Virus record (IMG/VR): IMGVR_UViG_3300034072_001021
Location: 186,001-250,000 of that record
Source: a virus
Strand: one strand, 5' to 3'
DNA: 64,000 bases
In this document: positions 11,383 through 31,810 of the stretch, piece after piece
How positions within the stretch are numbered: the stretch's first letter is position 1
Layout of the letters: each line of letters opens with the position of its first letter
Program-made: the position numbers and the translations under genes
Notes under the pieces: model-generated
What the model was told of the DNA's origin: nothing
The model's input: the letters and a program-made list of their open reading frames with translations, nothing else
Database searches by the model: none

Positions 11383-13278
11383 ATGTCCGTCAACGATCCG
11401 CACAACGGTCAAGAATCCGTGAACACTGGCGCCGAGCAGCGTCAAGACCGTGCAGCCCCTCAGCAGCAACAGCGTCAGGCCCCGGTGGTTAACTCCATCC
11501 TCGACCTGAACCGTCTCCTGGGTGGCGGCATGTCCCGTCGCACCAGCGGTGAACAACTGATCGCCGCCATCGCCGCCTGCAAGTTCTGGTTCTCCGCTGA
11601 CCGTCAACTGGCCGCCGCCGGTGGCATCGATCTGACCAAGATCCAGGTGATCGGCCTGGAAGCTTCCGAGCACAACGTCGAGGTCTCCTCGGTCATCCTG
11701 GCCTACCCGGTCGAGTCCCAGGGCACCCTGCGTGTTCTGACTCACTTCCTGGCCCTGGAATCCAGCCTGGCTGAAGAGAACCAGGTCCGTACCGTCAACC
11801 TGAACCATCGCGACTACCCGCTGCCGGTAGTGGTCTCCGACTACATGACCGAGTCCTACATGGCTCTGGTCGATGAGATCGTGAAGAAGCACTTCGAGCA
11901 GTCCCGTCGCAACGTCGAAGTACAGCGTGCCGGCTGGCGCACCGTCTCCCGCAAGGTCAACTTCTCCGAGCCGGAAAGCACCGAAGCCCGCAACGTCGTG
12001 TTCTACGCCCAGGCGGCCATCGTGGCCATGTACAACCACGTCTACGAGCGTGACCTGTACTTCAGCCTCGAGTGGCTGAGCAAGAACTCCACCCTCGAGA
12101 TCTCGGTCGACATGTCCGGCCGTGAGGCCCACAGCGCCGATGGCCTGCCGCGCCGCCGCGACATCGCGGTGAACGTAGCCGGTAAGGTGGCCAAGGGCGA
12201 CCAGACTGCTTCGGTTGGCCTGGCCAGCCTGGGTGGTTACGTCAGCCTGATGTACTCGCCGCCCCAGGACGAAGACCGCTGGAATCGCAACGTCCGTCGC
12301 GATACCCCGTACTTCACTCCGACCCTGATCATCAACGCCATCGACACCGGCACCAACAGCATCACTGCTGAGCAGCTGCTGCTCGGTCTGGCCGGCGCTT
12401 CGGTGATCAGCTCCAACCAGGCGTGGGCTCAGACCTTCCTGCCGGGCGAAGTTGCCCGCGGTGAGATCGACTACCGTGACACCGGCCTCCTGGGCCTGCT
12501 CGGTCCGGACAAGACCGCTTTCGAGATCGAAGCACGTACCAACCTCGACACCGACAAGTGGGGTCAGTACTTCTTCTCCCTCGTGAACGAGAACCTGGCC
12601 TGGGCTATCGAACTCGAGGAGGGTGGTGACAACTCCTGGATCATGGGTCTGCTGCTCGACGCTGCTTCCGACACCAGCCCGAACCGTGACGCCGTACGTC
12701 GTCTGTACGACTTCGCCGATCGTCTGACCAACAACAACTTCTCCCGTCGCGCTGCCGAACTGGACGTCACCGTCCCGCTGCAGCTGTCCGGTGCCCGTTA
12801 CCTGACCGGTACCTGGATCGACGAGCGTGGTGAAGAGCGTGACCTGCGCGAGTGGGATCTGCTCCGTTGGATGGCCCAGAACCCGACCGACGAAGGCACC
12901 TCGGCCCTGAACTACCAGGACGTCATCGACCGCGTCGACCTAGACGTGGAAGTGCGCGTATCCGAGCAGTTCACCCAGCTGACCAGTGCTCTGGGCGCGT
13001 CGAACGTGAAGTTCAGCCGCTACGTCGACCTGGCGTACATCAATCCGAAGTTCATCCAGGCCCTGGCCGCTGCTGTGGCAGACTGCAAGATCAACATCGA
13101 TCAGCGCAGCGCTCACTACAGCTTCGGCGCTCGTCGTCTGCGTGGCAACACTCGCATCCGCGATTTCGTGGGTGGCGACCTGACCAACGGCATGCTGTCC
13201 AGCCGTCGGATCGGTGGCAACGAGCGTTCCCTGCGTGGTCACGTGGGCAACGGCTTCGGCCATGGTTCGTCCTTCTAA
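11383..13278 (+). CDS. chmA: Chimallin (ChmA), phage nucleus shell protein
   Basis: A 631-residue protein, the length I recall for 201phi2-1 gp105. ChmA self-assembles into the single-layer lattice that encloses phage DNA in the cytoplasm. Supporting features: Gln/Arg/Pro-rich flexible N-terminal 35 residues and a flexible Arg/Gly-rich C-terminal 50 residues, as expected for the segments that lace subunits together; a folded two-domain core between; extreme C-ending codon bias, as expected for the most abundant early protein; its own early-type promoter; and the next gene is the nvRNAP beta-prime N half, exactly the phiKZ gp54-gp55 order. AAGGAGTG precedes the ATG. The assignment rests on length, layout, expression signal and synteny rather than on an alignment, so a structure prediction would settle it. 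Confidence 0.85.
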   Translation: MSVNDPHNGQESVNTGAEQRQDRAAPQQQQRQAPVVNSILDLNRLLGGGMSRRTSGEQLIAAIAACKFWFSADRQLAAAGGIDLTKIQVIGLEASEHNVEVSSVILAYPVESQGTLRVLTHFLALESSLAEENQVRTVNLNHRDYPLPVVVSDYMTESYMALVDEIVKKHFEQSRRNVEVQRAGWRTVSRKVNFSEPESTEARNVVFYAQAAIVAMYNHVYERDLYFSLEWLSKNSTLEISVDMSGREAHSADGLPRRRDIAVNVAGKVAKGDQTASVGLASLGGYVSLMYSPPQDEDRWNRNVRRDTPYFTPTLIINAIDTGTNSITAEQLLLGLAGASVISSNQAWAQTFLPGEVARGEIDYRDTGLLGLLGPDKTAFEIEARTNLDTDKWGQYFFSLVNENLAWAIELEEGGDNSWIMGLLLDAASDTSPNRDAVRRLYDFADRLTNNNFSRRAAELDVTVPLQLSGARYLTGTWIDERGEERDLREWDLLRWMAQNPTDEGTSALNYQDVIDRVDLDVEVRVSEQFTQLTSALGASNVKFSRYVDLAYINPKFIQALAAAVADCKINIDQRSAHYSFGARRLRGNTRIRDFVGGDLTNGMLSSRRIGGNERSLRGHVGNGFGHGSSF

Positions 13279-29653: not shown

Positions 29654-31810
29654 ATGAAAATCGATGTGTATAGTCATGCCATCCGTGTAACTGATGTCAT
29701 TACAGATCGCGACTTGCAAGCAATGATGTCGTTCTGTCGTCCGTTGGTTGAATACGGATTCGAGAAGAAAGGGAAGCGGTTTGTCCCTAAGGGTCTCCGT
29801 ACATACGCGTCTGCAACACGTAATCGCAAAGAGTTCGGTTTTCATCGGAATCAACTGCAAGATTTGAAACGCCATTTGTTTCAGAATCATGGTTACGTGG
29901 AGCGACTCGTTCCGATAACTTATCATCCTATCGAAGAGATCAAGGTCGAGAAAGTTGAATTTGAAATCCGCAAGATGCATTCTCCTCGTGAGAAGCAGGT
30001 GGGTATCATCGACTACGTACTGGATGATGAGAATCCTGCATGGGATGCCATCATTAAGATGGTTACGTTGCAGACAGGTGGTGGTAAAGCACTGTCAGTA
30101 AAAACACCAGTACGTATACCTGGTGGCTGGAAGCTGATGGGTCAGTTGAAGGTGGGTGATGAGATCATTGCTCGCGACGGATCAACGACCACAGTGAAAG
30201 GATATTATCCTCAAGGCCCGAGAAAGATGTACCGGGTTACATTTGAGGATGGTCGATGGGTCGACGCTGACCTTGAACATCTGTGGTATGTCCAGACATT
30301 CTCTGGATGGAGGACGGTCACTACCGAGACCATCATGTCCATGATGAGTCGTCGGGCCGCTGTGAGCATTCCGCTTATTGAGCCAGAACGAGATAAGCTC
30401 AGGGAGCGCTTTGTCTCCATTGTCAGAGCACTCGGAACTGCTAAAGACGGTACATTCACAGTTAAAACCACCGATGCCAACAAACTGGCCTATCAGGTCC
30501 GTTCTGTAGGCGGTAAAGCATCCGTCCGGGACATGGGCGACGGGTATTCCGCAGTCACTGTGGAGAAGCGTCCCAAAGAAAGAACACTGGCTATCCGCTC
30601 TATTGTTCCAGTAGGTGTCGAGGAAGCTGCATGTATCGAAATCCACCACGAAGAAAAGCTTTACGTTGTGAAGGACTTCATTGTCACCCACAACACCTTC
30701 GTGGCTCAGTACTGCATGAACCAGCTAGGTGCACGCACCATCATCCACTTCAAGGGTGGTTACGTGCAGCGTTGGAAAGACGATCTGGAGGAAACCTTCA
30801 ACTTCAAACGTGGGGAGTTCCTGATTGTCCGTGGCTCCAAAGATCTGGCAGCATTGCAGCAGATGAGTCTTGATGGTGACCTGAAAGCTAAAGTCATTAT
30901 CATCACTTCGGCTACGATGCGTGATTACATCAAGGACTACGAAGAATCCAACGGACATAGCAAGCAGTTCCCAATCAAGCCTATCGATTTCTACCCGAAA
31001 TTGGGTATTGGCTTCCGGGTCACTGACGAACTGCACCAAGAGTTCCACAACAACTACAGGATCGACCTCTATACCCACGTGCCCAAGTCGCTTGGTCTGT
31101 CTGCCACCATGGTCAGCTCAGACGCTTTCAAGAACAAGGTGTACGACATCGCCTATCCGGTAATGCAACGGCATGACGGTGGCGGGTATCACGTTTACAT
31201 CGGTGTGATGGCTGTACTGTATCACATGGATGAAGATGTGCGGATTCGTTACATGGGTGCCCAAGGGTACTCACACACGACATTCGAAGAATCGATCATG
31301 CGACATAAAGGCCTGCTGAAGAACTACCTCAAGATCATCGATCATGCGATTTACCATCGCTTCGTTTCGGTGCGCGAGGAAGGTCAGTCTGCACTGGTGT
31401 TCTTCGCCAGGGTAGATATGTGCACGCTGATGGTCGAACGCCTGAAGAAGATGTACCCTGAACTGAACATCGTCCGTTACGTAGGTTCTGAGAACGATTC
31501 GTACGAAGACTTCTTGGAAGCAGACATTGCGGTATCGACGATCGGTTCTGCCGGTACTGCTGTTGACAAGCCCAACCTGCGGTCGAGTTTCATGACCACA
31601 GCGATCGATTCGCGCCAATCTAACGAGCAAGTACTGGGTCGTACCCGTCCGCTTAAAGACTGGCCACACGTGACTCCTGAGTTCATTTACTTCGGGTGTC
31701 TAGAAATCGATAACCACATGAAGTACCACCGTAACAAGAAAACGTTCTTCCACAGCAAAGTGCTGAGTCATGGGGAAATGATTTCTCGTTACGCGTTAAC
31801 CCTGAAATAA
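29654..31810 (+). CDS. SF2 DEAD/H-type helicase interrupted by an intein
   Basis: 718 codons; after removal of the 202-residue intein (residues 146-347) the host protein is 516 residues. Helicase motifs: the Walker A loop QTGGGK/TF is rebuilt only by splicing; DELH box at residues 458-461; LSATM (motif III); and SNEQVLGRTRP (motif VI with the arginine finger). Superfamily 2 helicases use ATP to unwind or translocate on nucleic acid. In phiKZ a helicase occupies the same place after the beta-prime C gene (gp75 by my count). The N-terminal 130 residues are basic. The 178-base gap before it has no shared promoter box that I can see. The ribosome site is weak, and the ATG at 29654 is the first in the frame. 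Confidence 0.88.
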   Translation: MKIDVYSHAIRVTDVITDRDLQAMMSFCRPLVEYGFEKKGKRFVPKGLRTYASATRNRKEFGFHRNQLQDLKRHLFQNHGYVERLVPITYHPIEEIKVEKVEFEIRKMHSPREKQVGIIDYVLDDENPAWDAIIKMVTLQTGGGKALSVKTPVRIPGGWKLMGQLKVGDEIIARDGSTTTVKGYYPQGPRKMYRVTFEDGRWVDADLEHLWYVQTFSGWRTVTTETIMSMMSRRAAVSIPLIEPERDKLRERFVSIVRALGTAKDGTFTVKTTDANKLAYQVRSVGGKASVRDMGDGYSAVTVEKRPKERTLAIRSIVPVGVEEAACIEIHHEEKLYVVKDFIVTHNTFVAQYCMNQLGARTIIHFKGGYVQRWKDDLEETFNFKRGEFLIVRGSKDLAALQQMSLDGDLKAKVIIITSATMRDYIKDYEESNGHSKQFPIKPIDFYPKLGIGFRVTDELHQEFHNNYRIDLYTHVPKSLGLSATMVSSDAFKNKVYDIAYPVMQRHDGGGYHVYIGVMAVLYHMDEDVRIRYMGAQGYSHTTFEESIMRHKGLLKNYLKIIDHAIYHRFVSVREEGQSALVFFARVDMCTLMVERLKKMYPELNIVRYVGSENDSYEDFLEADIAVSTIGSAGTAVDKPNLRSSFMTTAIDSRQSNEQVLGRTRPLKDWPHVTPEFIYFGCLEIDNHMKYHRNKKTFFHSKVLSHGEMISRYALTLK
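30089..30694 (+). mobile_element. Mini-intein with class 3 signature in the helicase P-loop
   Basis: Residues 146-347 of the helicase frame. The insertion point is exactly between K and T of GGGKT. The first intein residue is Ala, not Cys or Ser. Three positions match the class 3 WCT triplet: Trp two residues after the block B His (LEHLWYV), Cys at block F position 4 (AACIEIHH), and Thr just before the final His-Asn (VTHN). Thr is the +1 extein residue. In class 3 inteins the block F Cys attacks first, so no N-terminal nucleophile is needed. About 100 residues between blocks B and F include FTVKTTDANKLAYQVRSVGG, which resembles the end of a LAGLIDADG endonuclease; the catalytic part is missing, so it is a degenerate mini-intein. 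Confidence 0.9.

Follow-up and report, generated by a model that had tools for sequence, protein, structure and literature searches.

The helicase gene and its insert

The window, the whole stretch of 64,000 nucleotides analysed here, belongs to a virus record of 259,140 bases and carries on its plus strand an open reading frame (29654..31810) for a helicase precursor of 718 amino acids, identified by its match to the PHROG 16 DNA helicase family (2e-30) and by its motifs. The P-loop of this protein is split by an in-frame insert of 202 residues (30089..30694, plus strand; ORF residues 146-347), which lies exactly between the Lys and the Thr of TGGGK/T. It separates an N-extein of 145 codons (29654..30088, plus strand), ending in TLQTGGGK, from a C-extein (30695..31807, plus strand) whose first residue, Thr+1, is the P-loop Thr, so that the junctions read TLQTGGGK / ALSVKT...FIVTHN / TFVAQY. 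Without the insert, the predicted spliced product has 516 residues and intact helicase motifs, namely TGGGKT, the Walker B sequence DELH (31025..31036, plus strand) and QVLGRTR.

The insert has the residues of a class 3 intein, which is defined by Trp at B:12, Cys at F:4 and Thr at G:5 in the accessible parts of PMC5222942 and PMC5050341. Position 1 is Ala; the lack of a nucleophile there, a mark of class 3 inteins, led us to reject a class 1 intein, which would have Cys, Ser or Thr at this position. The Trp is Trp66, which follows His64 by two residues in the block B sequence Asp61-x-x-His64-x-Trp66 (30269..30286, with the Trp codon at 30284-30286). The Cys is Cys182 at block F position 4 (30632..30634), the predicted initiating nucleophile and the sole Cys of the intein, and block G reads Thr200-His201-Asn202 (30686..30694), with a nucleophile at +1 (THN|T). 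The first-pass annotation had given the Ala, the block B His, the W-C-T set and the His-Asn, together with the coordinates, the junctions and both lengths, and all of them proved exact.

The window also contains an ORF (11383-13278) that matches the PHROG 4795 nuclear shell protein (1.3e-65), and split RNA polymerase subunits are encoded in the same record. We therefore took the record for a phiKZ-type nucleus-forming jumbo phage, and the host protein of the insert is an SF2 helicase of such a phage. An RNA polymerase subunit gene precedes the helicase gene in the window and in the eight relatives examined, with one small ORF between the two in pPa_SNUABM_DT01. As the helicase copy of phiKZ is matched as a single unbroken piece of 1,491 bases, phiKZ has no insert of the size of the window intein. 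In Salmonella phage SA002 (L007, 2579-5169) the annotation divides the homologous helicase into two ORFs of different frame, with the junction at the P-loop adjoining the intein; this may reflect biology or a sequencing artefact.

Class assignment and predicted splicing chemistry

In profile alignments W66, C182 and T200 corresponded to Trp67, Cys118 and Thr137 of the Mycobacterium smegmatis DnaB intein, Msm DnaBi1 (numbering from the available text of PMC6195587). A profile of 43 inteins aligned the window residues with the H-x-W, the Cys and the THN of 6bs8 and 6rix, placing Trp66 in the H-x-W of 6bs8 and Cys182 in the same column as its Cys118; the N-terminal stretch of this alignment was strong and the C-terminal stretch was weak when taken alone (i-E 0.33 for 6bs8, 0.92 for 6rix). 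The Trp and Cys thus fall inside blocks B and F of class 3 structures. An AlphaFold model built with 43 sequences (pLDDT 94.0, pTM 0.89) is predicted to adopt the HINT fold, and its best match was the class 3 M. smegmatis DnaB intein 6bs8 (Z 20.6, rmsd 1.5 Å over 123 residues), followed by the class 3 structures 6riy (Z 20.1) and 6rix (Z 20.0). Close behind came Prp8 (Z 19.5) and gp41-1 (Z 19.0 for an engineered form, 18.9 for the native one).

The class 1 intein gp41-1 also ranked level with or ahead of the class 3 structures in three sequence searches: the native form stood ahead of them in two and behind in one, and the engineered W-C-T form came first in all three. Similarity alone therefore does not set the class; the fold marks the insert as an intein, and the residues place it in class 3. 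Neither Pfam nor NCBIfam gave a match to the window intein above cut-off. An intein tree, made up only of inteins from this search and thus lacking class 1 inteins, gave no firm deep placement of the window clade and no clear sign for or against its descent from the full-length clade at the same site. The class 3 assignment made in the first reading is supported by motifs, by alignment with class 3 structures and by the predicted fold.

The window intein shares with Msm DnaBi1 and Mch DnaB1 (6bs8, 6rix, 6riy) the P-loop insertion before Ser/Thr, Ala1, the W-C-T triplet, the block B DxxH and the HINT fold. It differs in its host, an SF2 phage helicase, exceeds Msm DnaBi1 in length by about 63 residues, and has a half-endonuclease that is predicted to be folded and a single Cys. 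Judging from motifs and model, the insert is very likely active and very likely splices by the ordinary class 3 mechanism. Cys182 would attack the bond that joins Ala1 to the P-loop Lys, so that the N-extein is held as a block F thioester, and the N-extein would then be transferred to Thr+1. Cyclisation of Asn202 would release the intein, and an acyl shift would leave a normal GGGKT loop.

Since position 1 is Ala, class 2-type splicing, in which Thr+1 would attack directly, has to be weighed. Inteins of class 2 are orthologs of KlbA in which G:6 is Ser and F:4 is Asp (PMC4031507, as far as its text is available), whereas in the window intein, which sits in a helicase, G:6 is His, F:4 is Cys and W, C and T occur together; we rejected it as a class 2 intein and find this chemistry hardly credible. 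The loss of the endonuclease motifs could also point to a decaying, splicing-dead intein in a pseudogene, but the splicing residues, the reading frame and the helicase motifs are all intact. Furthermore, comparison with a 202-residue intein that is 93% identical (L024), found by a search with the intein alone, gave a dN/dS of 0.026 for the whole intein and 0.016 for its splicing part (NG86, with synonymous change near saturation). The two inteins agree at 187 of 202 residues and at only 42 of 98 4-fold sites, and we consider a dead intein very improbable.

The first-pass annotation had further proposed that the ATPase is inactive until splicing, which could act as a timing switch. Its former half is a fair inference, as an insertion in the P-loop, called the classic insertion site between K and T in the accessible part of PMC5050341, should prevent ATP binding. 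For the switch itself, with the helicase held off until some stage or stress of infection, we found no evidence. A precedent for conditional splicing exists in M. smegmatis DnaB, where a class 3 intein in the P-loop is inhibited by H2O2, but the redox toggle of DnaBi1 requires a second intein Cys (both from the available portion of PMC6195587). The sole Cys of both the window and the L024 inteins is Cys182, the predicted nucleophile, which leaves the window intein no partner for the known intramolecular disulfide. The intein is also missing from 7 of 14 close relatives, which means that the helicase gene works without it. A regulated switch is therefore unlikely, and we retain ordinary class 3 splicing as the preferred reading.

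A probable endonuclease remnant and turnover at the site

Between the splicing blocks, residues 98-166 (30380..30586, plus strand) appear to be a remnant: they align with a LAGLIDADG endonuclease in its second half but lack the catalytic acids. Full-length inteins at the same site (L011, L012, L015 and phage LucasX; 342-344 residues) have a LAGLIDADG_3 domain (1.6e-12 to 9.2e-9) with two acid motifs. In the alignment of the window's middle region with the second half, their GLVDTDG stands against SIVRALG, and TISYCTVSEQLAKDVQYLVRSLGGMARIR stands against TFTVKTTDANKLAYQVRSVGGKASVR. Compared by profile with full endonucleases, this region gave a modest match (75.6% probability over 25 columns), and a Pfam search of the window intein gave no LAGLIDADG match at E <= 10. 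In the whole-intein model, residues 104-159 form a helix-strand-strand-helix-strand-strand unit (block mean pLDDT 81-93), and superposition of the model on PI-SceI takes in 197-201 of its 202 residues (2.7-2.8 Å). Modelled alone, the middle domain gave a weak result (pLDDT 67.7), so that the evidence for a half-LAGLIDADG fold comes from the model of the entire intein. The middle-domain fold of the window model is also that of PI-SceI and other LAGLIDADG inteins, which splice by the class 1 route, but these carry two endonuclease halves with acids where the window has one half without them.

From the second-half alignment, the model and the superposition on PI-SceI, the most fitting reading of the insert is an intein that has been shortened and retains half of an endonuclease, now dead. 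An active LAGLIDADG homing endonuclease was rejected, the first half being absent, the second motif reading SIVRALG and the catalytic acids being gone. The earlier term mini-intein is apt insofar as both LAGLIDADG active-site motifs are gone, but it overlooks the apparent half endonuclease domain that is kept. Codon comparison indicates that this middle region is under constraint: 83 of its 94 residues are identical to those of L024, its 4-fold sites match at 18 of 48, and its dN/dS is 0.038, again by NG86 and with synonymous change near saturation. With L021, which is more distant, the identity is 56% in the middle region and 71% in the splicing part.

The same helicase site is empty in seven of the 14 related viral-contig loci (L014, L017-L020, L022, L023) and filled in the other seven (L010-L013, L015, L016, L021), although these loci are not all independent, L012 and L013 sharing the same intein ends and L017 and L018 being identical in the compared helicase stretch. 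Because the empty and the filled genes agree on the identical codon boundary, the insert is not due to chance. The helicase gene is also uninterrupted in pPa_SNUABM_DT01, the closest named phage. Across 14 distinct inteins of this site, the window's included, His64, Trp66, Cys182 and Thr200-His201-Asn202 are invariant, and residue 1 varies among Ala, Met, Arg and Leu.

Read at the level of sequence, inteins have been exchanged at this site. The helicases of L010 and L015 are 99.4% identical in protein and 97.5% in DNA, yet their inteins, of 228 residues (Arg1) and 342 residues (Met1), are 42% identical; the DNA upstream is 98% identical over 3.8 kb, and that downstream is mixed, with 98% in one part and 78% in another. 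For L011 and L012 the values are 96.5% for the helicases and 74.5% for the inteins. The reverse is seen in L015 and L016, with 97% for the inteins and 78% for the helicases, and in the window and L024, with 93% and 76%. A helicase tree of 16 rows rejected clades of the window with L024 (p 0.005), of L015 with L016 (p 0.0003) and of all filled genes (p 0.006); a clade of the window, L024 and L021 exteins was not rejected (p 0.09).

Helicase differences crowd within 75 nt of the site both in L010/L015 (9/150 vs 29/1335, p 0.011) and in L011/L012 (20/150 vs 76/1335, p 0.0009), where 75 nt was the sole distance tried and the p values are uncorrected. No clustering was seen in two more distant pairs, L012/L014 and L011/L014 (p values 0.54 and 0.71). 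Such clustering is the trace expected of co-conversion during homing, to which we would attribute the exchange, and other recombination could leave the same trace. We consider it highly probable that the insert is a class 3 intein in a phage-helicase P-loop, at a site repeatedly invaded and replaced in close relatives. Its ancestor would have been a mobile intein with a LAGLIDADG endonuclease, of which the first half and both active-site motifs were later lost and the apparent second half persists as a folded domain.

Neither the class of the window intein nor the kind of site that it occupies is new. The inteins of LucasX, Rebecca, Proteus phage 10, KpLz-2_45, VP4B and EL lie in the same helicase family, at the same position after GK and with the same class signature, and those of phage EL are listed in InBase. 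These inteins are 31-40% identical to that of the window, with A, L or M at residue 1; those of LucasX, Rebecca and Proteus phage 10 (344-346 residues) have both LAGLIDADG motifs, which the window intein lacks. The intein of this gene is partly flagged in public records already: the LucasX record is annotated "intein-containing" and the match in AerS_266 "DOD-type homing endonuclease". In a literature search that covered few subscription papers, no paper describing this helicase intein was found. The TerL1-a inteins of mycobacteriophages also interrupt a phage ATPase at the "classic" position between the P-loop Lys and Thr (PMC5050341, accessible part), but their host is a terminase rather than a helicase, and the likeness meant here is that of the described site.

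The locus amounts to a natural experiment, in which one codon boundary of the helicase is empty, filled with a complete homing intein, filled with shortened inteins or differently filled in near-identical genes of nucleus-forming phages. With such varied fillings, work on laboratory phages and in E. coli could put to a direct test the homing cycle, how freely residue 1 may vary in class 3 splicing, and the order in which the endonuclease is lost.

Class 3 inteins in the wider collections and loss of the endonuclease

The view that class 3 inteins are rare and known mainly from phage and DnaB-type proteins was not borne out in the collections searched. Relatives of the window intein are encoded at no fewer than 532 loci in viral contigs and at 154 loci in prokaryote genomes (tblastn E <= 1e-3). 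A first sample of 182 intein rows from 200 loci, without those in which letters close to the start were undetermined (L162, for example), yielded 156 distinct inteins. In all 156 the H, W and C were present and the residue after the intein was Thr or Ser; the T was present in 154, part of the sample having been picked by a pattern containing THN. The inteins sit directly behind GK or GR in 151 cases, and residue 1 was A in 121, M in 11, E in 8, S in 5, C in 3, R, D and Q in 2 each, and L and G in 1 each, one Q (L110) reflecting a start placed one residue late. The block B D-x-x-H of the window has its D in only 18 of the 156; the block B of Msm DnaBi1 also reads D-x-x-H in the available text of PMC6195587. 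A second, neutral sample of 71 distinct inteins, drawn with search patterns free of the W, C and T positions, had C, T and H in all 71 and W in 69, the other two having Asn.

Profiles of the two LAGLIDADG halves were built on 78 full-length inteins, and each recovered 78 of 78 held-out rows. Among 44 distinct inteins shorter than 330 residues, 25 matched the second half only, none the first only, five both and 14 neither at E<1e-3; the window intein is one of these 14, with an E of 0.03 for the second half. This sample was ranked by likeness to the window and is biased towards inteins that keep the second half. With both samples thinned at 70% splicing-domain identity, there were 15 second-half-only, 0 first-half-only, 24 neither and 75 both. 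The neutral sample held second-half-only inteins in 6 of 71 cases, all six already in the first sample, first-half-only inteins in 0 of 71, and fully deleted ones (170 residues or fewer) in 15 of 71; among its 54 new inteins were no second-half-only case and 14 fully deleted minis. Given the ranking bias and the lack of a fresh case in the neutral sample, the second-half asymmetry is a lead and not a law. It is a tentative and rather doubtful idea that the loss of homing in class 3 inteins follows a fixed order, in which the first LAGLIDADG half goes and the acid-less second half is kept folded and selected, either the splicing domain or the host phage having come to depend on it. The half-endonuclease of the window would then be a co-opted splicing or DNA-binding module.

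Several variants were seen in passing. L206 and L216 (151 and 148 aa) are P-loop inteins with Ala1, Cys at F:4 and THN, and with Asn in place of Trp at B:12, possibly a variant of the class 3 triplet. Inteins at L049, L051 and L053 (207 aa) combine Cys1 with the complete W-C-T set, so two initiating nucleophiles are possible, and Ser1 occurs with the full set in five further distinct inteins. L041 and L106 each carry two class 3-type inteins, in different ORFs.
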